This document shows positions 15,101-33,210 of a DNA stretch of 33,210 nucleotides, in pieces. Made by a program: the position numbers and the translations under genes. Below the pieces are notes generated by a model, which saw nothing but the letters and a program-made list of their open reading frames with translations, was not told the DNA's origin and did no database searches. This DNA is from Clostridia bacterium (lineage in GTDB: Bacteria > Bacillota > Clostridia > Christensenellales > UBA1242), in NCBI GenBank assembly GCA_017621525.1, contig JAGASX010000008.1, forward strand, positions 1-33,210. The letters run 5' to 3'. Numbering within the stretch: position 1 is the stretch's first letter; every line of letters begins with the position of its first letter.

Positions 15101-18100
15101 CAAGCGGTGAATACACCTTAAAAGTTACCGCATCAAAGGCAGGCTATGTTGCAAAAACTGCAAACTTTACATTCAATGTGTCAATCAGCGGACTTGTTTT
15201 AAATGAAGTTATATTCGACGCGGACACATTCACATATTCAAACAAAGATTTTGCAAATGATATTTTAATTACCTTAAAGGGCTTGTTTGATGACAAATTC
15301 ACTTTGGCAGAACTTACCAAAGAGGAAAACCCATACTGCTATTTCACAGTTGACAGAGGCATAATTAAAAATGTTGGCACATTCAATCTTACCCTTGTGC
15401 TTGACAGCGACGTGTTTGACACCGCAAGCATGGGCGAGTTTGAATACAATTATCAAATAACCGTTGAAAAGGCATCTATTCTTCTTAAACAAAGCGATAT
15501 TCCAGCCGAGCACAGCGAAAAACTTCTTGGCATGGAGGACCCAACTTTCACATTCAACATAACAATGTTTGAGGGTGAAAATGCGGAAGAAGTGGAAGTT
15601 TCACTCACCCGCCAAAGTGGCGAAAACAAAGGCGAGTATGCGTTTACTGCAATTTCAGTTGCATCTGCAAACTTCACCGCAGATATGGAAGAGGGCTTAA
15701 TCTTTACAATCAAACAGGCAGAGGGCGCACTTAAAGTTGTGCTTGAAAATGAAATTTCTGCCGTTTACAGCAAAACAATTCCTGTTATTGAAATTGCATA
15801 TAATGAAGAGTTTGGCCAATGGATTATGTCGCTTGGCGACAGTTCAACAAACCTTATTCTGCTTTACCAAAGCGGTGAGGACTTTATTGAAATTTCTGGC
15901 ACACTTTACAAAATAGCGCTTGAAAACATTTCATTCTCACTTGATGAGGCGGTTGACGCAGGCACTTATGACGCGGGCAACATGAAGTATGCTGGCGAAG
16001 GCAACTTTACAGACTTTATTGTTGCCGGAAGTGTAAAAATTGCAACACGTGCAATCACTTTGGCAGGCATCACAAAAGTGTTTGACAGAAATGAAAACAT
16101 AATTGCAACCACAGAAAATCTTAGCGGTCTTATCGCGGGCGACGACGTTGCCCTTACCGGTAAATACAAAACCATGACAGTTGCAAATGATATTGAACTT
16201 ACAAGCCTTGCCCTTACCGGCACTCGTGCGTTTAACTATCATATTGTTGCAGAGGGCGCAACAGGAGATATCACTCCACTTGCAGTAAATGATGTGGTTG
16301 TGGAAATTTCAAACGACCAATTTGAATATGGTCAAATTTCAAATACAACACCATCAAGCGAACTTTCTTCACTTGTTGGTGAAATAAAACTTTCACTTGA
16401 TGGCAATCTTGGCGACCTTTCACTTGACTTTATATCTGTTGAAAGCCTTGCAATTTCCGGTGAAGTTTCAACCGCTGGATACCTTAACGCTGGCAGTGCA
16501 GACATTGTGATTAAATTCGCATCAAACAACTTCTCTGGGCTTAAAGCAGAGGGCTATTCAGTATCAATTTACCTTACTCAAAAGCAACTTGACCTTTCAG
16601 CAATGACAATTGTGAAAGACTATGACAAAACCGCCACCTTGCCAAATGACATTGCAGGCGAGTTTGCATCTTACATTTTTGCTGGTGATGATGTGCAAAT
16701 TGATATGACTTTAAGTAAGTATGAAAATGCAGAAATTGGCACAAACAAGGCAGTTGCCATTGTGCTTGCGGGCAGTGATAGTGCAAACTATGTTGTACTT
16801 GACAACGTAAAAGGTACAATCAATGCATACTCTGTAAAACTTACAGTAAATGCAACAACACAGCATGCAGACCTTGTAACTGACGGCGCATTTGTAGCCG
16901 ACGGCATTATGCCAAATATTGGCAGTGCAACCTTTAAAGTGGGCTATCCAAGCACAGAAAGTGCAAGTGCGGTTATGGCATCGCTTACACTTCCTACAAG
17001 GACGGGTTACACCGCAACCGGCTGGAAGTATTATGACGGCAACGGCTATACAGCGCTTACAAGTGAAAACATTTTCTCTTTCCTTGAAAGCATTGTAAAT
17101 GACCAATCACTTACAGAAAAAACTGCAACAATTTACACCGCTTGGGAGATTGAATACTATTCAATTTCAATCAGCGGAGAAAACATTGCATCTTATCAAG
17201 TTTCTTCAACAGACATAGCGGCATTTGACGAAAACGACAAAATTAAATATTTCAGCGACGTAAGCATAGACTTCACCGCAGAACGCGGATATAAATTTAA
17301 GGCATATATGCTTGCAAGCGGAAATGCCGGCGGACGCAACTTTGATGATGTTGGAAACAACACTTCAACCATTGCGATAAGCCAAATTGCGTCAGACCTT
17401 GCTTTGGAAGTTACAACCGAAGAAATTATGGTAACATTTGCAATTGAAGCAAATATACCAGATTATACTACAAGAACAGACACAACCGACCTTGAAAAAA
17501 CATTTGCATACTCTCTTCTTTCAACTATGACAGAAGATGATATTGCTTCGCTTTCAGTTACCGAAGGCACTTACAGCCTTGTTGGGCTTTTGTACAACGG
17601 CTCTGACACAATAGGCGACAAAACATTGCAAGAAATTGTTGATATTGTTGATGAAAATCTTGCAACAGACCTTACAATCAACTTGCTTGCAAAATGGGCG
17701 GGTGAAGAATACCAAATCACCTTTGATGCAAATGGTGGTACACTTGTTGGCGACAGCCAAATAGACGCAGTTTATGGCAGTGCGTTTGCAGTTTCATTCC
17801 CAGATGCAATTAAAGACGGATATATCAAAGCTTGGGTTGACCATGAGGGCAAAGCCTATACAGAACTTGACGTGTTGACAACAATTGGCACGCTTGGCGG
17901 GGACGGAAAGTATCACCTTACTTTCACTGCCGAGTGGAGATATGCAGACTTCAACCTTACCGTTGCATTTGAAGAAAAAATTTCTGTAAAAGTAAATGAT
18001 GAAGAAATTTTAAGCGGACAGACATTTACGCTGACCTATGGCGACGAGGGTGTTAAAGTTGAAGTGTCAGTCGAGGCGGGATATTCATTCTCGGTTGACG

Positions 18101-21100
18101 ACAGCAGACTTGTTGGCGAAATGACACAAGAAGGAAATATCTTTGTAATTAAAAACCTTACAGCAGACAGCGTGATTAAGTTTAACAAAGTTTGCATTGA
18201 CAATACCCTTACCCTTACCCTTACCCAAGTTGAAAGCATTTTGGTAACAATTGACGGGGAAGAGGCACAAAGCGGTGAAGTGATTGTTGTAAAAACAGAA
18301 AGCGTGGCAGAAATTGTGCTTACTTCTGTGAAAGGTTATGAATTTACACTTGCAAACATCACATTCACTGGAAGTGGAACGCTTGACAGAGAAATTTCAG
18401 CAGATAAAGGCACCCTTACCCTTGTTTGGAGTGGCTTTACCGCAGACGGCGAGGCAGAAATTTCAGCAACGCCATCAACCAACACAATTACAATAGAGGA
18501 CGTTAGTGCATACTTTATGACACTTACCCTCAACGGACAGGCAATTGCCGTAACAGGTGGCACATTTGCAATTAAAACTGATGAAGAGGTTGCAGTTGCA
18601 GGTACACTTAAATATGGCTATGAAAACGCAAGCATTTCAACAGGCGACGTTGATTATGTTAAAGCGGGAAGTGTGGATAACACATTCAACAACAGCGATA
18701 AATACTTCTACTTTACCGCAACACTTACAAACATAAATGACAGTTTCAGCGTTGCACTTTCTGCGACAGAGCGTGAATACACATTTGAAGTTTCTGTTAA
18801 AGAGGGCATGGAGGCATTTGGACAAATCACCTCTACAACCCCTGTAACTGTTAAGTTTGGGCAGACGCTTGAAATTGCACAGCAAGAACTTCGCTATGAC
18901 TATATGTTCAATGGTTGGGAAAGCGGTGGAGAAATTATTTCTACTGACGCGGTTGCAACAATTGTTCTTGATGAAAGCCAAAAGGCACTTCTTGAAAGCG
19001 TTGCACACGGCGAAAATATTTCAATTTTTGCGACATATATTAAACGCACAATAAATGTAACATTCTCTGCGGGCATTTATGGCGGATACAGCCTTATCCA
19101 AGATGGCCAAGAGATTGCTTATATTGAAACCCAAACATCAGTCGTTCAAGAAATCATTTTGGGCATAGACCTTGTAATTCAACTTGTGCCTGATAAAGGT
19201 TATGAAGTTGACCTTGTAAAACTTGACGGCTTGGCAATTTCACTTGCCGACCATGGCTATACAGAAACTGACAAACTTGTTACAATTTCAACTGATATAG
19301 ACAATCCATTCACAAGCGTTGATATTTCATTTAAGGCAAGTGCACTTAACATCACAGTGCTTGCCGGTACAAGAATTCGCTATGAAGAGCACCTTGGCAC
19401 AGACGCCGGTGGTTGGATTTACGCAACAAACTCTCGTGGTGAAAGACTTGATGACAGCGTTTACAAACAAAATGACGGAGAACTTATCATTGGCGCAAAC
19501 TATAAGTTCAGCACATACACCGATATAAAAATTTACTTTGTTGCAGTTGCAAAAACCGGCTTTGCTTACACAATCAGTTGCGATACTCCGGGCGTTGTTA
19601 TCAACGAAAGCAACTTAAACGGCACAAAGGTATATTCATTCAGTGGAATTAAAGAAAACATCACAATCAAGGCAATTTTCATTGCAAAAGAAAACAGCGT
19701 AAACGTTCAATTTGCAATGCAAGGCGAAAGCGAAATTGCTTACGCAGGTACAATTGCCGTTGACTCTTCAAGTGCACTCGTTTCGGCAAGTCCAAACAGA
19801 GGCTCTCACCTTGAAATTGGCGTTGTTACAAGTGCAACACTTTCTCTTGAAGTGTACTCTTCACTTGCATACTCACTTCTTGCCGATGAAAATGGATATC
19901 TTGTATACTCAATTGCATACAAAGGCGATGGTTTCTTTGAAACTGTTACCGTTGGTATGCTAAGTGCTATGGATAGGGTTACAACAGGTTTCAGTTATGG
20001 CACAACACTTGAAATTCCAAACATCAACGCAGATGCAACCATTTACATTTACGTTGTTCCGCAAGAATACACACTTACCTTTGCAGTAAGCGATATTGAA
20101 TCTGTAACCATGACAACCAAAGTGCATTATGGTGAAGAATTTGATTTATCAAGTCTTACCGAGGAAGAACTTGGCATTATATTCCCAGAACGTGCAGGCT
20201 TTACATTCTCTGGATACTACACAAAACCACTTGGTCAAGGCACAATGTACATCAACGGCAAGCATGAAATTGTAAGCGTATGGCTTGAAGACGGCTTTGA
20301 ATTTAATGGTACAATCTATGTTAAAGATGACGGCTTTAATATGGAAACCAATTCATTCACCCTTTACGCTGGTTGGATTTTCAATAGGGCGGTGGTAAAT
20401 ATTGAATTTACACCTGCTGATGTGCAAAATGTTGATGAAAGCAAAACTGTTGCCGATATGATTTCAAACTATCACAGCATAACTGCTTGGACAAGTCAAT
20501 ATTCAAGATGGTATGTGGAAATTTTGATTGGCACAAATGTTGAATTTAAAGCAATCGACTTTGACGGATACGAGTTTGAAAGTTGGACACTTTACTTTGA
20601 AGATGAAACAGAGGGCGTAGAAAAACCAGCATCATTCACACTTATGGACATCAAGTTTGGCACATACACCTTAAAGGCTGTTTACAACCCAACTTACACA
20701 ATGCAAATTCAAAACCTTAACAATGGCAAAGATGACGGCGGTGATTCATATTTGGTACAAAACGGCGTTCGTATCACAGGAAAGAGTTTTGATAAAGATG
20801 AAATTCTTACACTTAAAAGTGTGCCTAATGAGGGATACAAATTCCTTTATTGGATAAACATTGATACAAACGAAAGATATATGCCAACCATTGACGCTAT
20901 GGGTGAGGCAACTTACACATTTGCACATCTCCGTATTCTTCCACTTAAACTTAAAGCGGTGTTTGTGGGCAAAACGGTTGTTGTAAACCTTAATACCGAA
21001 AATGCAACCCAATATCACACAATCCGCGAAGTAACAGTCAACGGCAAAACTGTTGATTACTCTTCACCATTCAATGCTTGCGTGGGTGATGAAATTAAAC

Positions 21101-22164: not shown

Positions 22165-22290
22165 AGCCCTCCCTTGTTCTTCTGCCTTCCCCTTTAGCCG
22201 TGGGGAGGTGGCACATAGTGCCGGAAGAGGCTCAACTTTAAGTTAAAAGTGAAAAGTGAATAGTGAAAAGGTGTGCTCCGCTCCGCACGC
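22165..22290 (+). repeat. REP-like intergenic repeat, copy 2, with a degenerate AGTGAAA tandem
   Basis: This copy contains GGGAGGTGGCAC (22203-22214), shared in opposite orientation with copy 1, and the hairpin GGCAC/GTGCC (22210-22222). It is followed by a degenerate tandem of AAGTGAA-like units (22241-22270) and a short GC-rich hairpin-prone patch. It lies on the host side of the element boundary. Confidence 0.5.
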
Positions 22291-22447: not shown

Positions 22448-22487
22448 AAGCCCAAATATAAGGCATTTTCTTATATTCGGGCTTTTT
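22448..22487. terminator. Bidirectional terminator after the serine recombinase
   Basis: AAGCCC (22448-22453) pairs with GGGCTT (22479-22484). After one mismatch the stem continues for 8 bp (AATATAAG with CTTATATT) around a 7-nt loop. The recombinase stop codon touches its right side, so it should end the minus-strand transcript; the T run on the plus strand suggests it works both ways. Confidence 0.7.
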
Positions 22488-24000
22488 ATATTTTGATATA
22501 AATATCGTATTTAGTTTCTTCTTTTACAGTTGTATTGCCTTTATATCGTCTAGTTTTAGTAAATGTTTTGCTGAATATCTTAACACAAGTTTCTTCGCCT
22601 TCAACTGCTTTATATTTAGTATAATTGAAAGCAATTTCTATTTTATCATTGTAAACAACAATTTCTTTTACTAATAGATTTATCATATTTTCAGTGCTTT
22701 GTTTTAGCGAGTATTTGAAGTAGTTAGCAATTTCTTCTTTTGTAAGCATTGCTTTTTCTTTTGATTTAGCAACCGTGATTTTCTTTTCAAGTTCTCGCTT
22801 TTCTTTTTCAAGTTCTTCAAGTCTTGATTTGGTTGTTTCTGTAAAGATGCCTTTTTCAATAGCACTCATTATGTTTGAAATAGATTTCATAACACTTGCC
22901 AAGTCTTGATTTAATATGTTTACAGAGTTATCTTCATTAACTCTTTTTTTATGCACATTGAAAACTTTCTCTACAAACATTGAAATATTGTTTTGTGTTG
23001 CAAATACTTTTAAGATTGCTTTGTTTACAACTTCTTCTAAAAAATCTTTTCTTATTATTTTAGAAGGGCAGGTCTTTTTATGATTAGGATTTGTATCATA
23101 GCATTTGTAGTATCTTAATGGCTGTCCTGTATTTGACTTTGCACTTAACGCATAAAGTTTTCTTCCACAATAGCCACAAAATACTTTGTTTTTTAGAATA
23201 AAGACAACTGCATCAACTTTACGATTTCCGTGTTTATTCTTTTCAATCTTTTGTCTAGCAAGTTCGTAAATGTCTTTATCTAAAATAGGTGGGTATATCT
23301 TATCATAGACTTGCCCGTTTACTCTATAAATACCTGTGTATTTTTCTTGTCTTAAAATATTATGAATTGTGCTATCTAAAAATTGATTACCTTTGTTTCT
23401 AATTCCTTGTGCATTTAATTCTCGTGCGATTTCTCTAACTGCTTTGCCATTTACATAATCAGTAAACATTCTTACGACAATTTCAGCTTCGTCTGGATTG
23501 ACTTTTAGTTTAGCACCATCTCTAACATATCCAAAGTTTACATAACCACCGATAAAGTTTCCTTTTAGTCGTGTTTCGTTCATACCACGCTTTGTCTTTT
23601 GTGAAAGTTCTTCCGAGTAGTATTGGTTCATACCTTCAAGCAAACTTTCTAATAAAGTGCCTTCTGGTGTTTCTGGTATATTTTCAACTGCTGACAAGAT
23701 TTTAATTCCATTGTCTTTAAGGTGTTTTCTGTGAATAGCCATTTCGTATTTGTTACGAGAGAAACGGTCTAATTTGTAAACTAAAACATAATCCCAGCTT
23801 TTCGCATCACTATCTTTTAGCATTCTTTGAAAGTTTTCTCTCATATCGTGAGTTCCTGTAATGGCTCTATCAATATAAGTGTCAAGAATTAAGATGTCGT
23901 TTCGCTTTGCAAAATCTTCGCAAACATGCAACTGACCTTCAATAGATTGTTCAGTTTGTCTATCGCTTGAATATCTTGCGTAAATGACTGCTGTTTTCAT
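22486..24000 (-). CDS. Large serine recombinase (integrase)
   Basis: This recombinase is expected to integrate and excise the element by cutting and rejoining at short attachment sites. The 504-residue protein has an N-terminal resolvase domain (~1-145) with the YxRxS motif YARYS, catalytic Ser11, and active-site arginines Arg79 and Arg82 (KLDRFSRN). A Recombinase domain (~150-255) follows, then a zinc ribbon with Cys275, Cys278, Cys300 and Cys311, then a coiled coil (~365-417) as in large serine integrases. The start overlaps the stop of the upstream resolvase-like gene by 4 nt, and a GGTGGTG site lies upstream. All key residues are present, so it should be active. It may be an integrase or a transposon-type recombinase; its place at the edge of a phage-like element favours integrase. 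Confidence 0.93.
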   Translation of the reverse strand: MKTAVIYARYSSDRQTEQSIEGQLHVCEDFAKRNDILILDTYIDRAITGTHDMRENFQRMLKDSDAKSWDYVLVYKLDRFSRNKYEMAIHRKHLKDNGIKILSAVENIPETPEGTLLESLLEGMNQYYSEELSQKTKRGMNETRLKGNFIGGYVNFGYVRDGAKLKVNPDEAEIVVRMFTDYVNGKAVREIARELNAQGIRNKGNQFLDSTIHNILRQEKYTGIYRVNGQVYDKIYPPILDKDIYELARQKIEKNKHGNRKVDAVVFILKNKVFCGYCGRKLYALSAKSNTGQPLRYYKCYDTNPNHKKTCPSKIIRKDFLEEVVNKAILKVFATQNNISMFVEKVFNVHKKRVNEDNSVNILNQDLASVMKSISNIMSAIEKGIFTETTKSRLEELEKEKRELEKKITVAKSKEKAMLTKEEIANYFKYSLKQSTENMINLLVKEIVVYNDKIEIAFNYTKYKAVEGEETCVKIFSKTFTKTRRYKGNTTVKEETKYDIYIKI

Positions 24001-24392
24001 TTTTTATCACCACCTTTTAATAAGTTGTCTATATAACTTTCAAAGAGTTTATAGGTTTCTTTGTAAGGTGATGAGTCAATATCTGTAAATACAACTCTAA
24101 TTCCGTTCTTTTTCATATCGTTTTTGAATTTCAAAATCTTTGAAAAATTACGACCTAAAACACAAGCCGAATAAATGATAATTGTATCAATATTAAGATG
24201 CTTGCATTCTTTCTTTAACTGTTCAAACATTGGATAAGTTTGAAGTTTTTCGTTAGACAAATCAATGTAGGTGTTTATAACTTTCAAATTATGAATTGTT
24301 GCACATTGTTCACAACTGTATAATTGTTCTGCAATGTTTGGTTCATACTTCCTATAAGTAATGTGTCTTGCATAAATAACTGCTTTTTTCAT
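23997..24392 (-). CDS. Free-standing, catalytically dead resolvase-domain protein
   Basis: The 131 residues align from end to end with the resolvase domain of the downstream recombinase (MKKAVIYAR against MKTAVIYAR; TYID; KKNGIRV against KDNGIKI), and there is no DNA-binding part. Ile11 replaces the catalytic serine, Val78 replaces the first active-site arginine, and the DRxxTGT stretch is lost; only the second arginine (Arg81) remains. The gene has its own AAGGAG site, keeps a full frame, and overlaps the integrase start by 4 nt, so it is translated with it rather than decayed. It could pair with the integrase through the catalytic-domain or helix-E interface and modulate activity or direction; this is inference. 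The alternative is an ancestral duplicate on its way to loss. Confidence 0.8.
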   Translation of the reverse strand: MKKAVIYARHITYRKYEPNIAEQLYSCEQCATIHNLKVINTYIDLSNEKLQTYPMFEQLKKECKHLNIDTIIIYSACVLGRNFSKILKFKNDMKKNGIRVVFTDIDSSPYKETYKLFESYIDNLLKGGDKK

Positions 24393-24558
24393 ATCGCTTT
24401 ACTCCTTTTTTATTTTTAGGGTATAGCCCATATTTCAAAAACACTATGTATTGGTTAGTGCTTAACTGGTTGAAAAGTAGTACAATTTTTTTATTTACAA
24501 GACAAAGTTTGTAAACAATAGTATATTTTCTTTTCTTCTCAACTTGTCCTATTAACAT
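24352..24558 (-). CDS. Possible 68-aa leader gene of the recombinase operon
   Basis: The ATG at 24558 has an excellent site (AAAGGAG, 7-nt spacing) and opens a 68-residue frame beginning MLIGQVEKKRKYTIVYKLCL, basic with hydrophobic patches. It overlaps the dead resolvase gene by 41 nt, which is long for a normal operon overlap. I do not recognise the product. Its 5' end lies in the left arm of the inverted duplication, and the right arm keeps AGTTTACCC but not the ATG. It may be a translated leader rather than a functional protein. Confidence 0.45.
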   Translation of the reverse strand: MLIGQVEKKRKYTIVYKLCLVNKKIVLLFNQLSTNQYIVFLKYGLYPKNKKGVKRYEKSSYLCKTHYL

Positions 24559-24789
24559 GGGTAAACTCCTTTTTTGTCTTTTTTTTGACACTTCAAAAAA
24601 AAATCAGGGAATGGGGCAACAACCAAAGATAAAGAAAAAAAATATTGTCTTTGTAATTTTTTATTTTAATTGTTTAAGCGATAATTTTTTTCCTTTGGTT
24701 AAGGGGCAACATTCTCTGATACAATCAAGCATCAAAAAGATGCGATACGAATTGGTAAAGTTTACCCACCAACAAACAAAGGACAAGTT
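24541..24789. repeat. Diverged inverted duplication in the divergent control region
   Basis: Four blocks mirror around ~24665. AACTTGTCC (24541-24549) mirrors GGACAAGTT (24781-24789). GGGTAAACT (24559-24567) mirrors AGTTTACCC (24759-24767). ATCAGGGAATG (24603-24613) mirrors CATTCTCTGAT (24710-24720) with one mismatch. AACCAAAG (24621-24628) mirrors CTTTGGTT (24693-24700). Between the inner blocks, GGGGCAAC is in the same orientation on both sides (24613-24620 and 24703-24710). There is no coding gene between 24559 and 24940. It probably carries the promoter and operator sites for the recombinase side, possibly for both directions. Confidence 0.65.
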
Positions 24790-24940
24790 GTCGTGATAAT
24801 GCTACTTTTATCCTAAAAATACTAAATGAAAATTATTCAATACAAAATTGCTACCACCTTAACACTAGTTGAATACCAACTAATACATACAAATTTGAAA
24901 AATGAAGTAGTAAAGTGTTGGTAACGAAAAGGAGATAGCA

Positions 24941-25084
24941 ATGAAGAAGAAAGAAAAGATTAAAGTTGAAGATTTGTTAGATTTATCATTATTAACAGAA
25001 GGGCAACTTCAATGTTTAGCAGAAGAATTTGAAAAAATGATATGTGATTTTTATAAAATGAAACCAGACAAAAAGCCCCCTTGA
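24941..25084 (+). CDS. Small acidic/basic 47-aa protein upstream of the repressor
   Basis: The ATG follows AAAGGAGA with 5-nt spacing. The product starts MKKKEKIKVEDLLDLSLLTE and ends KPDKKPP, with a predicted amphipathic helix through ...GQLQCLAEEFEKMICDF. The stop overlaps a TTGACA-like sequence 43 nt before the -35 box of the repressor promoter. I do not recognise it. The position between integrase and repressor would suit a small regulator such as a recombination directionality factor or Cro-like partner, but no HTH is evident. Confidence 0.6.
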   Translation: MKKKEKIKVEDLLDLSLLTEGQLQCLAEEFEKMICDFYKMKPDKKPP

Positions 25085-25126: not shown

Positions 25127-25155
25127 TTGACTTTTGGGGAAGGGCAACCTATAAT
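25127..25155 (+). promoter_or_regulatory. Promoter of the LexA-type repressor
   Basis: TTGACT (25127-25132), a 17-nt spacer and TATAAT (25150-25155). The spacer contains GGGCAAC (25142-25148), a heptamer seen three more times in the 540 bp upstream. Confidence 0.8.
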
Positions 25156-25164
25156 ATGAGTGTA

Positions 25165-25184
25165 TCGTGGAAATAATTCCACGA
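25165..25184 (+). promoter_or_regulatory. Palindromic operator candidate of the repressor gene
   Basis: TCGTGGAA and TTCCACGA form a perfect 8-bp inverted repeat with a 4-nt centre, just after the expected transcription start and before the AAAGGAG site. The placement fits autorepression; an mRNA hairpin is the alternative. It does not match the Gram-positive SOS box. Confidence 0.55.
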
Positions 25185-25206
25185 TTGACACAAAGGAGAA
25201 ATCCCT

Positions 25207-25815
25207 ATGAGAACTAAAAGTTCAATTTTAATGGATAAAATTATAGAGTTTATTGACAGTGAATATTACGCAAAGGGGAGAACCCCAACTATAATAGAAA
25301 TTGCGAGTGCTTTAAAAATATCAAAAAGTTGTGTTGGTAACTATTTAACTGATATGACACAAAAAGGTTTAATATCAAATAAAGGGGGTAGTCGTGGAAT
25401 TGTAACAAAATCTATGCAAAAGATAAGACAAGATACAGTTGAAGTTGCAGTTGTGGGCTCTGTTGCCTGTGGACTACCATTACTTGCCGAAGAAAATATA
25501 GAGTGTTATCTTCCTATCTCAAAAGAGTTTTTGGGCAGTGGCAAATATTTCATATTGAAAGCAAATGGCAATAGTATGATAAATGCAGGTATTTGTGATG
25601 GCGACTATGTAATTGTAAAGCAACAAGAAACAGCAGAAGAAGGTCAAATTGTCGTAGCTCTTATAGATGATGAAGCAACCTTAAAAAGATTTTACCGAGA
25701 TGACAAGCAGAAAAAAATACGACTTCACCCAGAAAATAATAGAATGAAAGATATGTATTTTGATAATGTTGTTATTCAAGGTATTGCTGTAAAGGTTATT
25801 AAAGACCTAATATAA
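25207..25815 (+). CDS. LexA-type self-cleaving repressor (winged HTH + S24 peptidase)
   Basis: This is the element's likely lysogeny repressor, inactivated by RecA-stimulated self-cleavage after DNA damage. Residues 8-65 form a LexA-like winged helix-turn-helix (TPTIIEIASALKISKSCVGNYL, recognition helix near 39-50; wing near 58-65). Residues ~78-202 are an S24 peptidase: cleavage site Cys88-Gly89 (VACGLP), nucleophile Ser123 (NGNSM) and base Lys160 (EATLK). The distances 88-123-160 are those of E. coli LexA (84-119-156), and the length of 202 residues is also the same. The ATG has an AAAGGAG site. It has its own promoter and palindrome. A host LexA is less likely given the phage-like surroundings. 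Confidence 0.88.
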   Translation: MRTKSSILMDKIIEFIDSEYYAKGRTPTIIEIASALKISKSCVGNYLTDMTQKGLISNKGGSRGIVTKSMQKIRQDTVEVAVVGSVACGLPLLAEENIECYLPISKEFLGSGKYFILKANGNSMINAGICDGDYVIVKQQETAEEGQIVVALIDDEATLKRFYRDDKQKKIRLHPENNRMKDMYFDNVVIQGIAVKVIKDLI

Positions 25816-26365: not shown

Positions 26366-26680
26366 ATGATAACAGTTAAAGAAATTAGAAATGATTTGAA
26401 AGATATTAAGTATTATTACGCAAGAAAAGATAAGATTGACAAAGCTTCTGCGAGTATTGGGGTGAATGGAATTTATGAAAAAGTTGAAAAATACAACAAA
26501 GCAATTTGCAAAGCACCACTTCGTATGTATGACTTATATGTTGGTCTATATCAAGAAAACAATACATTAGAGTCTTTGGCAGACAGTATTTGTTATTCTT
26601 TTGAATATGTTGCGAAACTAAATCAAAAGTTGGTTAAGTTTTTTGAAAAAGTATTAAATGAAGAAGGAGAGCAGTTATGA
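26366..26680 (+). CDS. Candidate phage late-type transcription regulator (sigma-region-4-like HTH)
   Basis: The 104-residue protein has a helical N-terminal half (VKEIRNDLKDIKYYYARKDKID). Its C-terminal segment is LESLADSICYSFEYVAKLNQKL, near residues 68-89. That end follows the pattern of phage ArpU/RinA/DUF1492 activators, where a sigma-70 region-4-like HTH (TLxxIAxxLxYSxxxVxxLhxxAL) ends the protein. Such proteins activate late operons. It has an AAAAGGAGA site and overlaps the next gene by 4 nt (ATGA). The match is by pattern only and moderate; a generic small HTH protein is the alternative. Confidence 0.6.
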   Translation: MITVKEIRNDLKDIKYYYARKDKIDKASASIGVNGIYEKVEKYNKAICKAPLRMYDLYVGLYQENNTLESLADSICYSFEYVAKLNQKLVKFFEKVLNEEGEQL

Positions 26681-26934
26681 AATTAAAGATAGTTGAAATA
26701 CCAGATTTCATTGAAAATGCAGATAATCTTTACAGAACGAAACATTACATTATTAAGCAAGTTCTAACTCTTGATAATGAAAGTTTGGAAGGAACTCATA
26801 TCATTAGTGCAGACACTTTTTATAAGAGAACTAAAAAGCGAGATAAACAATTTGATGTGTTGTTCTCCGACACTAATCATAAAAACGGAAAAAGATTACC
26901 TTGCACTATGTGTTCAAGAAAATATGTTGATTAA
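26677..26934 (+). CDS. Hypothetical 85-aa protein, coupled to the regulator
   Basis: Its start overlaps the stop of the regulator (ATGA), so the two are translationally coupled. The product begins MKLKIVEIPDFIENADNLYR, has no signal peptide or membrane helix, and ends with a CTMC pair (LPCTMCSRKYVD) too isolated to form a full zinc site alone; it could bind metal as a dimer. I do not recognise it. A terminator follows at once, so the two genes form a closed unit. Confidence 0.75.
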   Translation: MKLKIVEIPDFIENADNLYRTKHYIIKQVLTLDNESLEGTHIISADTFYKRTKKRDKQFDVLFSDTNHKNGKRLPCTMCSRKYVD

Positions 26935-26940
26935 AGAAAG

Positions 26941-26973
26941 AAGATAGCTATTTGATATGGCTATCTTTTTTTT
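26941..26973 (+). terminator. Intrinsic terminator after the regulator pair
   Basis: AAGATAGC (26941-26948) and GCTATCTT (26960-26967) form a perfect 8-bp stem followed by a run of T to 26973. Confidence 0.85.
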
Positions 26974-27016
26974 GTTCCTAAATCTTAACTAATCAATACC
27001 AAATTATACAAAAACA

Positions 27017-27038
27017 GCACTAGTTCTGCACTAGTTCT
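27017..27038 (+). repeat. Tandem 11-bp direct repeat
   Basis: GCACTAGTTCT occurs twice in immediate succession (27017-27027, 27028-27038). CACTAGTT also occurs at 24863-24870 in the other control region. This may be a pair of protein-binding sites (iteron or operator). Confidence 0.7.
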
Positions 27039-27121
27039 ATACTACTTCATACATGGTTTTCAAAGCATTTCTTTTATACAATAGCAGTGTAATCAGTTGA
27101 CAGGCAAACACAACCGATTGA

Positions 27122-27169
27122 CTTGCGTGAAATTTCGTAAAGGTGGCCACCTACGCTATATATCGCAAG
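27122..27169. other. Palindrome cluster in the non-coding block before the structural genes (origin candidate)
   Basis: AGGTGGCCACCT (27141-27152) is a perfect 12-bp palindrome inside an AT-rich gap. It is nested in GCGT (27125-27128)/ACGC (27152-27155), with CTTGCG (27122-27127)/CGCAAG (27164-27169) outside. The whole gap 26974-27290 has no gene-like frame. Filamentous phages keep origins and the packaging hairpin in such an intergenic block. No initiator gene is visible here to test this. Confidence 0.4.
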
Positions 27170-27290
27170 AAACGATTTGTTTTAATAAAGTCCTAAATGC
27201 TGGTTACAAAAATTACAACTTAATATTTTGAAAACGCTTTGCTAACGGCAATACGGGCAATTAGAAAAAATTTATTTTAAGGAGATGCAA

Positions 27291-27563
27291 ATGGCAAATA
27301 ACAATGAAAGGCGTTGGTTCGTGCCTAATAAACGAGCTGAAAGTTATGCAAGTGAGCGTAAAGCAAAAGTGCATCAAAGAGGTCAAAAAGAAGGGCAGAA
27401 ACTTACCGACTATGAAGCAGGTATGCGTTCTGGATATCTTCAATGTCAATCAGACCATGCAGGTTTGTATATTTACAAAAAAGCATTAAACGAAGGCAAA
27501 ACAAAACAAGAAGCTAAAAAACTTTCAAGAATTAAAGGTAAACATAAAGGGGGTAATAAATAA
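27291..27563 (+). CDS. Small basic protein, first gene of the structural operon
   Basis: The product has 90 residues, starts MANNNERRWFVPNKRAESYA and ends in a strongly basic tail (KLSRIKGKHKGGNK). It is predicted soluble, with no membrane helix. I chose ATG 27291 because AAGGAG ends 6 nt before it; the in-frame ATG at 27285 touches that site and cannot use it. The stop and the next start overlap (TAATG). The charge suggests nucleic-acid binding, for example replication or packaging of ssDNA; I do not recognise the family. Confidence 0.75.
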   Translation: MANNNERRWFVPNKRAESYASERKAKVHQRGQKEGQKLTDYEAGMRSGYLQCQSDHAGLYIYKKALNEGKTKQEAKKLSRIKGKHKGGNK

Positions 27564-27916
27564 TGGCTAATAAGAAAGAAAATCAAATTGTAGTAGAAAG
27601 AGAAACTTACGAAAAAAATGGTAAACAATACTTCTCATATTTCGTAAAGGGCAATGTTCGTGGTAAAGATGTAAAAGCCAGTGTAATGCCACTTGATATT
27701 GGTGGTTATACAGTATTAGATATCGTCTTTGGAAACGAAATGAAAGCCGAGTTGGTATTAAATCCTTATGAAATTAAGGACGAAAAGACAGGAACCGTTA
27801 TGAGTGGTAACACTTATTCAGTTCGTTCTGTTGACGAAAATGGCGAAATCTACGAATGCAGAATTAAGCCAGCAAAAAATTCAGATAAATCATTGTTAAA
27901 TATGATTTTGAGATAG
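27563..27916 (+). CDS. Candidate phage ssDNA-binding protein (pV-like position)
   Basis: A 117-residue soluble protein, rich in predicted beta strands (KQYFSYFVKG, VKASVMPLDIGGYTVLDIVFG) with many Lys and aromatic residues, as in small OB-type ssDNA-binding proteins. It overlaps the preceding gene and lies directly before the tiny membrane proteins, the place of the ssDNA-binding protein (pV) ahead of the coat genes in filamentous phages. Assignment rests on size, composition and position, not on a recognised motif. A GGGGG site precedes the ATG. Confidence 0.5.
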   Translation: MANKKENQIVVERETYEKNGKQYFSYFVKGNVRGKDVKASVMPLDIGGYTVLDIVFGNEMKAELVLNPYEIKDEKTGTVMSGNTYSVRSVDENGEIYECRIKPAKNSDKSLLNMILR

Positions 27917-27927
27917 GAGTGTGATAT

Positions 27928-28137
27928 ATGAACGAAAAACTAAAAATAACTTTATGGGTTCTTTTAGGAATTGTTGGTGCTATTGCACTATTCAGTTTGA
28001 TTGTTGTCATTGGTTGTTCTGTTAATGGACTAACTTTTGGTGAGCAAGTGTGTGAATGGTTTGGGGGTAACGCTGGAACTGTTGTTGATTCAGCTGAACA
28101 AGTAGCCGAAGCAATTACTGAAACACCTATTGCATAA
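27928..28137 (+). CDS. Tiny membrane protein, candidate coat protein 1
   Basis: The product has 69 residues: basic start (MNEKLK), one hydrophobic helix at ~8-29, then an acidic, partly helical tail (VVDSAEQVAEAITETPIA). VVIGC at the end of the hydrophobic stretch is lipobox-like (Cys30), so a lipidated 40-residue mature form is also possible. Small single-helix membrane proteins next to an ssDNA-binding gene are what inovirus coat proteins look like. The order of charges is the reverse of the usual processed major coat protein, so the assignment is open. An AGGAG site lies upstream. Confidence 0.6.
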   Translation: MNEKLKITLWVLLGIVGAIALFSLIVVIGCSVNGLTFGEQVCEWFGGNAGTVVDSAEQVAEAITETPIA

Positions 28138-28149
28138 GGCTAAATCTAA

Positions 28150-28308
28150 ATGAAAAACTTAATCATTACAATTTTAATAATTGTTCTGGTGGTTCTTTTC
28201 GGGACTTGGCCATTGTCAATCCTATCAAAAGTATTTGAGTATATCGGCATTGCTCTTGGTTGGCTTGCAGATGCCTTAAATCTCTTTGGTTGGAACGGCA
28301 TAGTTTAA
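28150..28308 (+). CDS. Tiny very hydrophobic membrane protein, candidate coat protein 2
   Basis: The product has 52 residues: MKN, a run of Ile/Leu/Val to about residue 18, then a second amphipathic-to-hydrophobic segment (VFEYIGIALGWLADALNLFG). It is close to the small inovirus coat proteins (pVII/pIX class) or to a processed major coat protein in size and character. The start is 12 nt after the previous gene, with a weak AAGG site. A strong terminator follows. A holin-like protein is the main alternative. Confidence 0.6.
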   Translation: MKNLIITILIIVLVVLFGTWPLSILSKVFEYIGIALGWLADALNLFGWNGIV

Positions 28309-28386: not shown

Positions 28387-29679
28387 ATGAAGACATTAAA
28401 AGTTATTGGAAACTGCTGTTTTGTGTTTCTCGCAATAATTGGTCTTTGTGTAAGTCTTGCTTATGGATACTATCATTTCTTTGTTAAAGATGTTACGACA
28501 GGAACTAACTATATAGACAATCAAATTGCTCTTGATATAGTTGCATCTGACGACTTAACGGAAGAACAGAAAAATGAGTTTGAAGAACGATATTTTATGG
28601 AAGCAAACTTTTTTAGTAACGCTAAAAATAATGGTATTGCTTTGCAAGAATTAAAGTTTAACTATTTTACAGATTATTCTTTATCTTCTAATGCTTATCG
28701 TTCAACAGGTATGCAATATTTAGGGGACTTAAAACAAAGTGATTTAATTATTACTGAAACAACAGAACAAGAAGCACAAAGATACGAAAGCACTTCATTC
28801 AGTTATTACGACACGACTAATGGTGTTAGTTGGGAAGGCAACAAGTTAAGAACACAACTTAATCGTGAAAGTGCTTTTACTATCAAAATTGATAATCGTG
28901 CTTTCCAGATCCAACTTACAGGAACTTATGAATGGACTACTTACAAGCGTAGTTGGTGGTCTTTATGGCTTTATAATCAACCTATTACAAATATTCTTTA
29001 TTACAACTATTTGAATGTTTTTGCAGATTGTATGGAAGCTATAAGAACTAATAATCAAGGTTATGGTGATTATTATATTACGGTTGATTTAAGCGAGTAT
29101 TTTACTATTCGTGAGTATGACTTGGAGTCTGGAAAATACAAAGAAGATAATGTTACAGATATTATCAAAAATTATTCAGTTTTGAAATTCCACTATGACG
29201 AGAACGGCGCAAGAAATAGCACACAATCATTGTTCGGTATTATTGACTGCAACCCAAGTTACGATATTGTGGAAGAAGAAATTGATACAACTTATTGGCA
29301 AGAAAGAATGGTTTATACACTTAATGAAGATGACTTTTCTTACAGATACAGTGATGTTTATCAAGGGTATTTTCTTTCGCTAAATATGGATACAAAGAAA
29401 ATGTTTGATGAAATGCCAAGAGCAAAAGTCAATGTCAATATTGATTTACAAGCTCAATATTTGAAAGATAAAAATATCAATATTGTTGGTCTTGACTACA
29501 ATGCTTTTGAAGGTTTTGAAATTGATACTCTTACAATTAAAGGTCAAGCACAGAAATTCTATTTGCTTGAAAAATCATTGTATGACACACAATTACAAAC
29601 ATTTAAGTATTCAAAAGGTTTGGAGTTTGATATTGCTCCAAATGCGACAAATAACGAATATCAGGGGGTAGAACTATGA
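28387..29679 (+). CDS. 430-aa membrane-anchored exported protein of the structural module
   Basis: One N-terminal hydrophobic helix (~10-29; MKTLKVIGNCCFVFLAIIGL) is followed by a ~400-residue, Tyr-rich and mostly acidic ectodomain with a KRSWWSLWLY patch near residue 180. A basic N-terminus and a single helix predict an N-in, C-out signal anchor. An AAAAGGAG site precedes the ATG; the stop overlaps the next start (ATGA). No family is recognised. Its place after the coat terminator and before a Zot-like ATPase suits a minor coat or assembly protein. Confidence 0.8.
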   Translation: MKTLKVIGNCCFVFLAIIGLCVSLAYGYYHFFVKDVTTGTNYIDNQIALDIVASDDLTEEQKNEFEERYFMEANFFSNAKNNGIALQELKFNYFTDYSLSSNAYRSTGMQYLGDLKQSDLIITETTEQEAQRYESTSFSYYDTTNGVSWEGNKLRTQLNRESAFTIKIDNRAFQIQLTGTYEWTTYKRSWWSLWLYNQPITNILYYNYLNVFADCMEAIRTNNQGYGDYYITVDLSEYFTIREYDLESGKYKEDNVTDIIKNYSVLKFHYDENGARNSTQSLFGIIDCNPSYDIVEEEIDTTYWQERMVYTLNEDDFSYRYSDVYQGYFLSLNMDTKKMFDEMPRAKVNVNIDLQAQYLKDKNINIVGLDYNAFEGFEIDTLTIKGQAQKFYLLEKSLYDTQLQTFKYSKGLEFDIAPNATNNEYQGVEL

Positions 29680-30188
29680 AATGGTATACCTATTTAATCT
29701 GCTTTATTTTGATAGTGGTCGGTGTATTTTGTGGCATTGAACTTTATCGTGAAGTAAAAGCAGAAAGTTATGTAAACGGCTCAATAGATATTTCTAATAA
29801 GTTCAGTCAAGAATCGTTTAACTATTCAAGCACAAGTGTCGTTTTCTATCACGATTTATATGACGATACAGACACTTATAGCTTTGAAAAAGATTTGTTG
29901 AAAGTTGACGATTTTAATGGAGAAAAGAAAGAATACAAAGTTATTTTGAATGACTATGTATTGATTGGTAGTGAAATAAATGCTGGTTCAGTTTTCTCTG
30001 TTGTAAACATGGACTTTTACGATACAAACGGAAATATTGTCTGCAACTCTACTATGAAAATATCTATTCAGTTTTTAAGTAATAAAACACAATTAACACT
30101 CGTAACGACAGGACAGGAAAGTGCTAGTTTCTTGGAACAATACTTTTCTGACAATGGTATTCGTTTAAGAGTGATAGAAATTTTATAA
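29676..30188 (+). CDS. 170-aa membrane-anchored exported protein of the structural module
   Basis: A hydrophobic helix at ~4-22 (YTYLICFILIVVGVFCGIEL) is followed by a ~140-residue beta-rich ectodomain. A VKAES stretch after the helix could be a signal-peptidase site. It overlaps the preceding gene by 4 nt and is 11 nt from the next, so the three genes form a tight unit. I do not recognise the family; a small virion or anchoring subunit is the contextual guess. Confidence 0.75.
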   Translation: MKWYTYLICFILIVVGVFCGIELYREVKAESYVNGSIDISNKFSQESFNYSSTSVVFYHDLYDDTDTYSFEKDLLKVDDFNGEKKEYKVILNDYVLIGSEINAGSVFSVVNMDFYDTNGNIVCNSTMKISIQFLSNKTQLTLVTTGQESASFLEQYFSDNGIRLRVIEIL

Positions 30189-30199
30189 AGGAGATTTGT

Positions 30200-33037
30200 A
30201 TGGAAACGAAAAAAGTATTAAGCATAATATTTAGTTTGTTATTTGTTGGTGCTTTTGCTTTCGTTCTCGTGTGGGGTATTACAAACTTCAATAAAGTTCA
30301 AGAAGGTTTATCTGGAACGGGACTTTATACACAAGAAGATTTGAATAAAGCATACGAAGATGGATACGATAAGGCATTAACCGATAAGGCTGAATATGAA
30401 GAATTGATTAACAGTTATAGAGATACAATAACAACTTTGACCGACCAAGTAACTCTTTTAACTTATGCTAATCAAGATTGTGAAACTCAAATAAAGAACC
30501 TTACTGAAACAAAGCAAGGTTTAGAAACACAAGTTGCTAATTTGACAAGTATTAAGAACCAAAATGAAGCAACAATTACAAGCTTAAATGCTGAAATAGT
30601 TAGTTTGGAAAAACAAGTTAAGACATTAACTGAAAGCAACGAAGATAAAGATGAAGAAATTGCAGTTTTGAAGAATCAAATTGCTAATTTACAGGCTTTA
30701 ATATCTCAATTACAAACAACTAATGCTCTTAATGTAGAAACTATTAACAGCTTAAATGCTCAAATTACTAATCTTAATGCTCAAATCAGCGACCTTACAA
30801 TGCAATTACAAAACAATTCAAGCAATGTAATCGCATTACAAAATCGTATTGCAGAACTTGAAAGAACGGTTGCGTATTACGAACAATATATTGCAAATCT
30901 TGAAAATGGCGAACAGGTTGTAGCGACATTTGAATTTGCAGGAAGTGTTTATAATATTCAAATACTAGCAAAGAACAGTATTGCAACTGTAACAACTCCA
31001 ACTTCTACCGATTATGTTATCTTTAACTATTGGACTGTTGATGGGGTGCAAGTAGATTTATCTACTTATCAAGTTGAAACAAATACAAGATTTGTAGCAA
31101 ATGTAACTTACAAATATGATGTTAAGTTTGTTGTAAATAATGAAGAATATGATAGTCAAGTGGTCGTAAAAAATGGTTATCCAACACTACCAGCAAATCC
31201 TGTTGTTGAAGGATATGAATTTGACGGCTGGACTACTAATGGTGTTGATATTGTAAAACCTAATACAAGTGCTGTAACTATGAATACAACTTATTATGCA
31301 AAACTTACAAAACTTCATACTGTAACATTTATGTATGAAGATTGGGTAATGGAAACACAACAAGTTAGAAATGGAAGTTATGCAAGTGCAGTTAGTGTAG
31401 AAAATACAAACTATAAGACATTTAATGGTTGGTTGTTAAATGGTGCAAAGGTTGATTTATCTACTTATAAAATTACAGGTGCAGAAACTTTTGTTGCTGA
31501 CATTATTTACAGCTATGATGTTAAGTTTATTTCTGACGGTGCGACTTACAACTCGCAGATCATAGCGAAAAATAATAAAGTGTCTATTCCTAACAATCCA
31601 GTAAAACAAGGTTATGAGTTTGATGGTTGGACTCTTGATGGAAGCAATATTATCAATCTTACAACTTATTCTATTACTGAAAACACAACTTTTGTGGCTA
31701 AATTTACTAAAATTCATACAGTAACATTTATTCACGAAAATAATGTAATATCAACTCAAAAAATTAGAAATGGTGAATATGCAAATTTTGTAAATATTGA
31801 TGCAGGTTATAATATTTTTGATGGTTGGACTATAAATGGTAATTTGGTTGATGTTTCAACTTACGCTATTAACGAAGATACAACTTTTTATTCAAAAATC
31901 ACTATCAATACTGCTGAATTAAAACGAGAAACTTTTGCAAGTTCTATACCTTCAAAATACGATATTACAAATGTAGTATTTGATAGATATACAAGCAATA
32001 ATCAATATGTTGTAAATGGTGTAAATGTTATAAGTGGCTTAACTCCAACACCATTAAATGACGATAATACAATCCAGTTATATGTAAAAAATATGGATAT
32101 TTATGTGTTGTCAAATATGAGAATTAAGATTGATACAGGAAACAAATTCTTCCAAGCATTTTATAGTGTTCAAAGCATTACATTGAATAACTTTGACACA
32201 AGTGAAGTTACAGATATGGCGAATATGTTTTCAGATTGCGAAGTAATAGAAACGCTAGATGTGTCAATGTTAGATACTTCTAATGTTACAACAATGAGCA
32301 GTATGTTTAGTTATAACGATAAAATGACTTCATTAAATATTTCAAATTTTGATACAAGTAATGTAACAAATATGCACTATATGTTTGCAAGTTGTGATTT
32401 ATTAGAAACATTAGATGTATCTCATTTTAATACAAGTAAAGTAGAAAGATTTAGTGGAATGTTTTCAAGCTGTCCTATGTTGAAGTTTGTTGATGTTTCA
32501 GATTTTGATACTTCAAGCGCAACTGACTTCGGCACAATGTTTGGTTACTGCGATAGTCTAAACGGAATAGATGTTTCAAACTTTGATACAAGTAAATCAA
32601 CTTCTTTACAACTTATGTTTACAGGCTGTAAGGCTTTAACTTATATTGATGTGTCTAATTTTGATACAAGCAATGTAACAAACTTTTCTGGAATGTTCCA
32701 AAATTGTGCATCATTAACTTCAATAGATGTTTCAAACTTTAACACAGATAAAATGACTTCTGTAAATTATATTTTCTATGGCTGTTCTTCATTAAAAACC
32801 ATTGATGTAACAAGTTTTAAGACACATAACATTACAGATTTCAGGGGTATTTTTGCAAGTTGTCCTTCATTAACAACTATTTATGCTAATGATAATTTCA
32901 ACACTGCAAAATGCACAAACGATTATAACTTATTTAATGGTTCAAAAGCGTTGGTTGGTGCAATCGCTTATGACAGTTCTAAATTAAGTATTGCTTATGC
33001 TAACTACAAGACTGGATACTTTACTTATAAGGCATAA
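30200..33037 (+). CDS. 945-aa anchored adhesin-like protein: coiled coil, InlB repeats, BspA (DUF285) repeats
   Basis: The basic start and helix at ~7-27 predict an N-in signal anchor. Residues ~45-235 are a long coiled coil (heptads such as ITSLNAEIVSLEKQVKTLTE). Residues ~240-572 hold five InlB/Listeria-Bacteroides-type units of ~66 residues with GYEFDGW motifs. Residues ~658-911 hold about ten 26-residue BspA-type repeats (LTxIDVSNFDTSNVTNFSGMFxxC). No enzyme motif or LPXTG was seen. BspA and InlB repeats mediate binding to proteins or cells. Its place just before a Zot-like gene is that of pIII-type adsorption proteins, so a receptor-binding virion protein is inferred, with a lysogen surface adhesin as alternative. 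An AAAGGAG site lies upstream. Confidence 0.85.
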   Translation: METKKVLSIIFSLLFVGAFAFVLVWGITNFNKVQEGLSGTGLYTQEDLNKAYEDGYDKALTDKAEYEELINSYRDTITTLTDQVTLLTYANQDCETQIKNLTETKQGLETQVANLTSIKNQNEATITSLNAEIVSLEKQVKTLTESNEDKDEEIAVLKNQIANLQALISQLQTTNALNVETINSLNAQITNLNAQISDLTMQLQNNSSNVIALQNRIAELERTVAYYEQYIANLENGEQVVATFEFAGSVYNIQILAKNSIATVTTPTSTDYVIFNYWTVDGVQVDLSTYQVETNTRFVANVTYKYDVKFVVNNEEYDSQVVVKNGYPTLPANPVVEGYEFDGWTTNGVDIVKPNTSAVTMNTTYYAKLTKLHTVTFMYEDWVMETQQVRNGSYASAVSVENTNYKTFNGWLLNGAKVDLSTYKITGAETFVADIIYSYDVKFISDGATYNSQIIAKNNKVSIPNNPVKQGYEFDGWTLDGSNIINLTTYSITENTTFVAKFTKIHTVTFIHENNVISTQKIRNGEYANFVNIDAGYNIFDGWTINGNLVDVSTYAINEDTTFYSKITINTAELKRETFASSIPSKYDITNVVFDRYTSNNQYVVNGVNVISGLTPTPLNDDNTIQLYVKNMDIYVLSNMRIKIDTGNKFFQAFYSVQSITLNNFDTSEVTDMANMFSDCEVIETLDVSMLDTSNVTTMSSMFSYNDKMTSLNISNFDTSNVTNMHYMFASCDLLETLDVSHFNTSKVERFSGMFSSCPMLKFVDVSDFDTSSATDFGTMFGYCDSLNGIDVSNFDTSKSTSLQLMFTGCKALTYIDVSNFDTSNVTNFSGMFQNCASLTSIDVSNFNTDKMTSVNYIFYGCSSLKTIDVTSFKTHNITDFRGIFASCPSLTTIYANDNFNTAKCTNDYNLFNGSKALVGAIAYDSSKLSIAYANYKTGYFTYKA
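30917..31915 (+). repeat. Five InlB-type repeat units in the adhesin-like protein
   Basis: Units start at residues ~240, 306, 373, 439 and 506. Units 2 and 4 both begin YDVKF; units 3 and 5 both begin HTVTF. This indicates duplication of a two-unit block. Confidence 0.75.
32171..32933 (+). repeat. About ten BspA/DUF285 repeats of 26 residues (78 bp)
   Basis: DVSNFDTS and its variants recur with a 78-bp period (for example gatg at 32492 and 32570). Each unit carries MF or IF before a conserved Cys in most units. The last unit is degenerate. Confidence 0.85.
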
Positions 33038-33042
33038 CAATT

Positions 33043-33210
33043 ATGATAACGATTATCTTTGCACCACCTAGAACAGGTAAGACCTGTTTTATGACTCATT
33101 TGTTAAATATGAGAGCATTTGACAGGGAACGAAATCGTGATATGGCGAGAGAGATAATCAGAAAAAATAATAATGGCTTTAACCTGACCGTGCCTAAACA
33201 CTGCGTAAGT
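33043..33210 (+). CDS. Start of a Zot-like (pI) P-loop ATPase (partial)
   Basis: Only 56 residues are visible, from MITIIFAPPRTGKTCFMTHL. A beta strand leads straight into a Walker A loop (APPRTGKT) at the very N-terminus, then a helix. This is the start of the Zot/pI ATPases that drive filamentous phage assembly through the membrane. The gene follows the anchored proteins by 5 nt with a weak AAGG site and runs past the window edge. From so little sequence, other P-loop ATPases (FtsK/HerA-like) remain possible; gene order is the main support. The first Gly of the classical Walker A is Ala here. Confidence 0.6.
   Translation, partial: MITIIFAPPRTGKTCFMTHLLNMRAFDRERNRDMAREIIRKNNNGFNLTVPKHCVS

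Follow-up and report, generated by a model that had tools for sequence, protein, structure and literature searches.

CcrA and CcrB of the SCC elements are two serine recombinases that are encoded side by side and act together, and the truncated transposase of the Inh type in Tn5 is an incomplete enzyme that could poison the oligomers of the active enzyme. TP901-1 integrase was found as a tetramer in its structure, and in Hin the first residues of helix E, inserted into pockets of the catalytic domain, govern the dimer-to-tetramer transition (PMC4513852). For the directionality factors of serine integrases, a site of action at the zinc domain or the coiled coil has been proposed or demonstrated (PMC3783163; PMC5814800). 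Inoviruses use serine or tyrosine recombinases (PMC6813254). An inactivated serine recombinase encoded by a separate viral gene has been described in poxviruses, namely F16 of vaccinia (OPG061; PMC4304020). The open-access literature searched contained no report of a catalytically dead or domain-only protein paired with a serine integrase.

Here we analyse a gene for a catalytically dead serine recombinase domain (the dead gene, encoding the dead protein) that overlaps the gene of an integrase in the genome of a Clostridia bacterium (GCA_017621525.1, contig JAGASX010000008.1). The window, that is, the whole stretch of DNA analysed, comprises 33,210 nucleotides of this contig, and its features are collected in Table 1. 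An earlier note, made from the letters of the window alone, had drawn attention to this gene pair.

Dead recombinase domain and the adjoining integrase

The dead protein matches the Pfam Resolvase family (PF00239, E=1.2e-12; score 48.5 bits, cut-off 23.3) and no other family above cut-off; the Recombinase and zinc-ribbon DNA-binding domains are absent. Its residues 1-124 show 28% identity to the adjoining integrase (E=6e-14). Aligned with 69 related integrase domains, it has Ile and Val at the positions of the catalytic Ser11 and of Arg79, both 100% conserved in these domains, and Lys, Tyr, and Cys at those of Gln15, Arg54, and Asp78, which are nearly invariant in active enzymes. The dead protein has thus lost five active-site residues rather than two, while keeping Arg9, Asp44, and the third Arg (residue 81 in the dead protein and 82 in the integrase). 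In the numbering of gamma-delta resolvase, the residues lost are presumably S10, Q14, R45, D67, and R68, and those kept R8, D36, and R71.

The AlphaFold2 model of the dead protein, built from a 64-row alignment, has the serine recombinase fold with a pLDDT of 85.6. Helix E spans only residues 111-127 in this model, the chain stopping in the first half of that helix, and LFESYIDNL of the dead protein aligns to LLESLLEGM at the start of helix E in the integrase. The best Foldseek match of the model is the catalytic domain of TP901-1 integrase (3bvp, E 6.7e-08), which VIA-align also ranks first (Z 15.3, rmsd 5.2 over 119 residues) and which a sequence search of solved structures likewise returned, if weakly (E 0.035).

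The dead gene has a good ribosome binding site (AAAAAAGGAGTAAAGCGATATG), and the Shine-Dalgarno sequence of the integrase lies inside its end; the nucleotides of the latter are identical in one of the two other loci described below (L032) and the site is similar in the other (L124). Because its DNA contains this Shine-Dalgarno sequence, the C-terminal KGGDK is identical in two of the homologs. The stop codon of the dead gene and the start codon of the integrase gene overlap by 4 nt in the window, 1 nt in L032, and 4 nt in L124. Promoter matches 5' of the dead gene were no better than those in shuffled sequences. The earlier note had read an intact frame, an own ribosome binding site, and a 4-nt overlap, and these were all confirmed, as were its two substitutions (Ser to Ile and Arg to Val), to which the alignment adds three; its further statements that the small protein resembles the N-terminal domain of the integrase and has no DNA-binding part agree with the local identity, the single Pfam match, and the end of helix E at residue 127.

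The integrase carries the Pfam Resolvase, Recombinase, and Zn_ribbon_recom domains and matches the integrase family phrog_95 (E=3.5e-109). Every active-site residue checked is present, and judging from its sequence it is probably an active large serine recombinase. The catalytic domains of the integrases of related elements are 73-88% identical, as against 31-60% for their C-terminal parts. Met87 (in the numbering of large serine recombinases), which follows the third active-site Arg, is common to all three integrases paired with a dead gene and rare in others (5%); this could be due to chance or shared descent.

Table 1. Features of the locus in the window (strand: -, reverse; +, forward;., neither).
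Feature	Position	Strand	Remarks
Large serine recombinase (integrase)	22486..24000	-	504 aa, intact
ATGA overlap, stop of dead gene and start of integrase gene	23997..24000	-	4 nt, from sequence
Dead serine recombinase domain gene	23997..24392	-	131 aa, ATG to TGA; without DNA-binding part; first half of helix E only
Shine-Dalgarno region of the integrase, AAAGGTGG	24004..24015 (approximate limits)	-	Within the last codons of the dead gene (KGGDKK)
Shine-Dalgarno region of the dead gene, AAAAAAGGAG	24400..24412 (approximate limits)	-	Comparable sites at all three loci
Nested inverted repeats, intergenic	24440..24895	.	Possible single-strand DNA hairpin
47-aa ORF	24941..25084	+	Small ORFs at the corresponding place in sister prophages
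LexA/S24-like repressor	25207..25815	+	Divergent from the integrase operon; PF00717, E=2.7e-31; phrog_4 transcriptional repressor
Small conserved prophage genes (104, 85, 92, 117 aa)	26366..27916	+	Homologs in sister prophages
69-aa membrane protein, coat-protein candidate	27928..28137	+	Similar ORFs at the same place in G257 and L228
52-aa membrane protein, coat-protein candidate	28150..28308	+	From sequence
Conserved proteins (430, 170, 945 aa)	28387..33037	+	Adsorption or assembly candidates by position
Start of Zot/pI-like ATPase gene	33043..33210	+	Gene truncated by contig end

Host prophage

Judging from its gene set, the element that carries the pair fits an inovirus-like (filamentous phage) prophage. 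The 430-aa protein has homologs in nine other genomes. The Zot-like homologs match phrog_197 (E=4e-8 and 1e-11), while the Pfam Zot match is only below its cut-off. Sister elements encode a Rep of the G2P type (PF23343 REP_ORF2-G2P, E=1e-10 and 1e-12) in a part that, in the window's element, lies beyond the contig end, and some homologous elements in related genomes encode a CRESS-type Rep (PF02407). A zinc-ribbon ORF is located downstream of the repressor gene, and the small ORFs found at the place of the 47-aa ORF encode 59-79 aa in L218, L219, L224, and L227. An integrative conjugative element was also considered and dropped, the genes being inovirus-like.

The nested inverted repeats that separate the dead gene from the repressor side, folded as single-stranded DNA, gave z=-5.4 against shuffles, and the corresponding region of L184 (15880-16200) gave z=-5.5; they are a candidate for the packaging signal or replication origin of a filamentous-phage-like element. 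A strong sigma-70-like promoter (TTGACT-17-TATAAT) followed by a palindrome (ATCGTGGAAATAATTCCACGAT) was found at 25127-25185, 5' of the repressor gene. The palindrome, of which the window holds one copy, is likely the operator of the repressor itself, and a second copy near the dead gene was not found.

At least seven sister elements (G340, G579, G597, G618, G547 C15, G547 C3, and G257) have a homologous integrase gene adjacent to homologous element genes, without the dead gene. As most sister prophages lack it, the dead gene is an accessory modifier rather than a required part. Viral contigs scanned for two structural proteins of the element gave nothing, the search for an empty attachment site within the genus gave scattered repeat matches only, and Rfam matched neither the window nor the loci of the broken integrases.

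The end of the prophage adjoins a 6316-aa ORF (3139-22089) with signal-like N-terminal and membrane-like C-terminal segments, likely a giant surface protein of the host. The intergenic segment at ~22177-22290, a dispersed repeat at the border of host and prophage, recurs on contigs C3 and C15 of this genome and is matched piecewise in relatives.

Homologs, selection, and ancestry

The dead gene was found intact and directly before an integrase gene in two genomes besides that of the window. Locus L032 (JAFXKG010000002.1, a sheep-rectum Clostridia MAG; the same place as G683:C1) encodes an ortholog of 130 aa with 59% identity, and G311, which belongs to the same order and another family, encodes a homolog of 126 aa with 34% identity (locus L124). 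Ser11, Gln15, Arg54, Asp78, and Arg79 are replaced in all three dead homologs, which all keep Arg81/82, Tyr7, Gln23, Cys27, Ala31, and Tyr42 and have dead-specific residues in common (H10, R14, P18, K88, F89, and others). In G311 (contig C10; L185, 8900-18530) a phosphorothioation defence island of Dnd (B, C, D, and E) and Pbe-like genes was observed between the repressor and the dead gene-integrase pair of an inovirus-like element.

The dead proteins of the window and L032 align without an internal indel. Their genes differ at 37, 24, and 60 first, second, and third codon positions, with dN 0.28 and dS 1.44 (near saturation) and hence a dN/dS of ~0.2; the corresponding values for the two integrases are dN 0.44 and dS 2.09. 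Judging from these sequences, purifying selection acts on the dead gene, of the same order as that on the integrase gene. The opinion of the earlier note that the small gene is kept is borne out by an intact ortholog pair at 59% identity. Two outcomes that the note had named as refuting it were checked and did not occur: the pair is not confined to the window, and the small gene is intact in both other genomes.

The three dead proteins form one clade with a support of 98/90, as read from three examples with long branches and few columns, and the sequences point to a single origin of this lineage from the catalytic domain of a large serine recombinase. In the tree of the integrases, the enzyme of the window clusters with those of G061 and G088, to which that of G311 is joined next, while the enzyme of G683 groups with that of G547 C15 (99/97). 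A clade of the three paired integrases was rejected (p-AU 9e-110), as was a clade of the integrases of the window and G683 (p-AU 1e-78), whereas the dead proteins of the window and G683 are the closest pair. As the integrases beside it do not form a clade, the dead lineage has been combined with different ones. Either the integrase would have been swapped beside a retained dead gene, in which case the overlap would have been re-formed with the new integrase, or the dead gene would have been lost repeatedly. That the dead gene occurs with different integrases speaks for a functional link to integrases in general rather than for a chance neighbourhood.

Profile searches covered 396, 74, 297, 391, 34, and 101 genomes, in overlapping sets, and a fourth case was not found in them; the class-level (391 genomes) and phylum-level (101 genomes) searches in particular added none. 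Viral contigs scanned with one, two, or three dead homologs gave ordinary integrases only, phage records gave integrases or unannotated matches only, and plasmids gave nothing. Remnants of a dead gene 5' of integrases were not detected by tblastn in any of the loci fetched.

Other short resolvase frames in relatives (L125-L137) proved to be integrases, truncated or broken, whose Ser is intact, and not dead partners. In six of them (L125, L126, L127, L128, L129, and L133), from several genomes, the 5' fragment of the integrase stops after LEGF in similar sequence of the FERSNGHN type, and in five of the six the DNA runs near GGGTTTGAGCGTTCAAATGGACATAAT; this region is perhaps an attachment site or an insertion junction inside integrase genes.

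Possible role of the dead protein

We prefer, with somewhat less than even confidence, to see in the dead protein a co-translated partner of the integrase that would restrain or tune it as a built-in brake or buffer through surfaces of the catalytic domain and helix E. The dead gene would have originated one time from a catalytic domain and then lost the active site and everything past the first half of helix E. It would be translated from the same mRNA as the integrase and directly before it, and since the genes adjoin on a shared mRNA, both proteins would be born together in a set ratio. The dead protein would dock onto subunits of the integrase by those surfaces of the catalytic domain and helix E with which recombinases normally form dimers and tetramers, and because it has neither the DNA-binding domains nor the nucleophile, a mixed complex could not complete recombination. 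With such a brake, excision or integration would require more integrase, and the prophage state could be stabilised in this way.

For this partner model, the fold, the loss of the active site, the operon structure, selection, common ancestry, the association with more than one integrase lineage, and the accessory status are established. The LFESYIDNL segment kept by the dead protein belongs to the kind of region by which Hin controls its switch between dimer and tetramer (PMC4513852). Of the reading given in the earlier note, the dead, domain-only, overlapping, and selected nature of the protein is supported, and mixed dimers or tetramers with an inhibitory or directionality role are hypothetical. 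Because the catalytic domain is so much better conserved than the rest of the enzyme, one protein binding to it could partner many integrases. The binding could be weak, because the missing half of helix E is part of the usual dimer contact. Against a brake, constant production of a potent inhibitor along with the integrase would seem to defeat its own purpose, unless the affinity or stability of the inhibitor is tuned. Against the partner model in general, most sister prophages manage without the dead gene, and there are only three examples with long branches.

Selection on the dead gene comparable to that on the integrase, and translation with and ahead of it, would also be expected if the dead domain were an activating or obligate subunit that the integrase needs to fold, dimerise, or synapse, as in a degenerate two-recombinase system of the CcrA/CcrB kind. 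We consider this rather unlikely, and less likely than a brake, because the closest integrases (L222 and L018, of the 56% identity class) occur without a dead gene while having the same catalytic residues and helix E; moreover, the catalytic domains of the paired integrases have no consistent compensating change except Met87.

A small protein encoded beside an integrase, in a prophage in which no other such factor was identified, also recalls a recombination directionality factor, in which case the dead domain would join the integrase on attL and attR and permit excision, and contacts between catalytic domains could in principle alter which synapse forms. In the published models of these factors the zinc domain and the coiled coil are the site of action (PMC3783163; PMC5814800), for which reason we regard this role as less likely than a brake. 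The dead protein is also translated together with the integrase rather than under a control of its own, and so would already be there at integration. Most sister prophages with related integrases do not have it, and one dead lineage accompanies different integrases. All in all, we judge a directionality factor unlikely.

The high conservation of catalytic domains relative to C-terminal parts, by which one decoy could meet many enzymes, and the presence of several such integrases per host would suit an exclusion factor, that is, a dead domain that poisons the integrases of competing elements entering the cell, and one of the dead homologs adjoins the Dnd-Pbe defence island. The integrase of its own element would be struck too, however, and we think this quite improbable.

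Very improbable, in our opinion, is a mere translation device, in which translating the upstream ORF would couple initiation of the integrase and the protein itself would be jobless. The overlap and the embedded Shine-Dalgarno sequence recur at all three loci as such a device would have it, but selection acts at the amino acid level along the whole protein, fold residues are kept, dead-specific residues are common to the homologs, and sister prophages initiate their integrase without a dead gene. A decaying, functionless duplicate of the integrase gene, which a paralogous domain adjoining its relative without the active-site residues might resemble, is hardly credible and is contradicted by intact genes in three divergent elements, a dN/dS of ~0.2, a single origin, and good ribosome binding sites.

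Returning to the dead protein as a partner of the integrase, it is possible, although we would not call it probable, that a dedicated pseudo-recombinase, encoded by some filamentous-phage-like prophages and inserted into serine-integrase complexes, sets or restrains recombination via the catalytic domain, unlike the known directionality factors, and is portable between integrase lineages. If this is true, integrases would be controlled through the catalytic domain by the mixing of subunits, a handle different from that of known directionality factors, and serine integrases, genome tools in wide use, could be tuned by a simple encoded means. Dead recombinases would then join the pseudo-enzymes that serve as regulators. 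The closely related prophages with and without the dead gene would offer a ready natural comparison.

Comparison with known systems

The fold of the catalytic domain of large serine recombinases (TP901-1, 3bvp; TnpX, 2mhc) is common to the whole chain of the dead protein, and the TP901-1 catalytic domain construct has nearly the same length. In contrast to these enzymes, the dead protein is the product of a natural stand-alone gene from which the Ser, Gln, two Arg, and Asp are gone, and it is without the recombinase, zinc ribbon, and coiled-coil parts.

Several OPG061 models were among the fold-search matches of the dead protein. Poxvirus OPG061/F16 differs in its size (~215-265 aa), in not being coupled to an active integrase, and in being sent to nucleoli; it is a precedent for a dead recombinase but not for an integrase partner. 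CcrA and CcrB are both full-length and catalytically active, whereas one member of the pair described here is domain-only and dead. A system like CcrAB consists of two competent recombinases, both needed; here one member is dead and the closest integrases occur alone. Tn5 Inh is a product of the transposase gene itself, whereas the dead protein is encoded by a separate, long-diverged ORF with a mutated active site and is 28% identical to its partner. We take CcrAB and Tn5 Inh as functional analogies, not as memberships.

The directionality factors phiC31 gp3 and Bxb1 gp47 are likewise small proteins encoded with a serine integrase, but factors of this type are not reported as resolvase homologs, unlike the dead protein. 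By both sequence and fold, the dead protein is a member of the serine recombinase superfamily, but it does not show the active site and the set of domains that a functional recombinase has.
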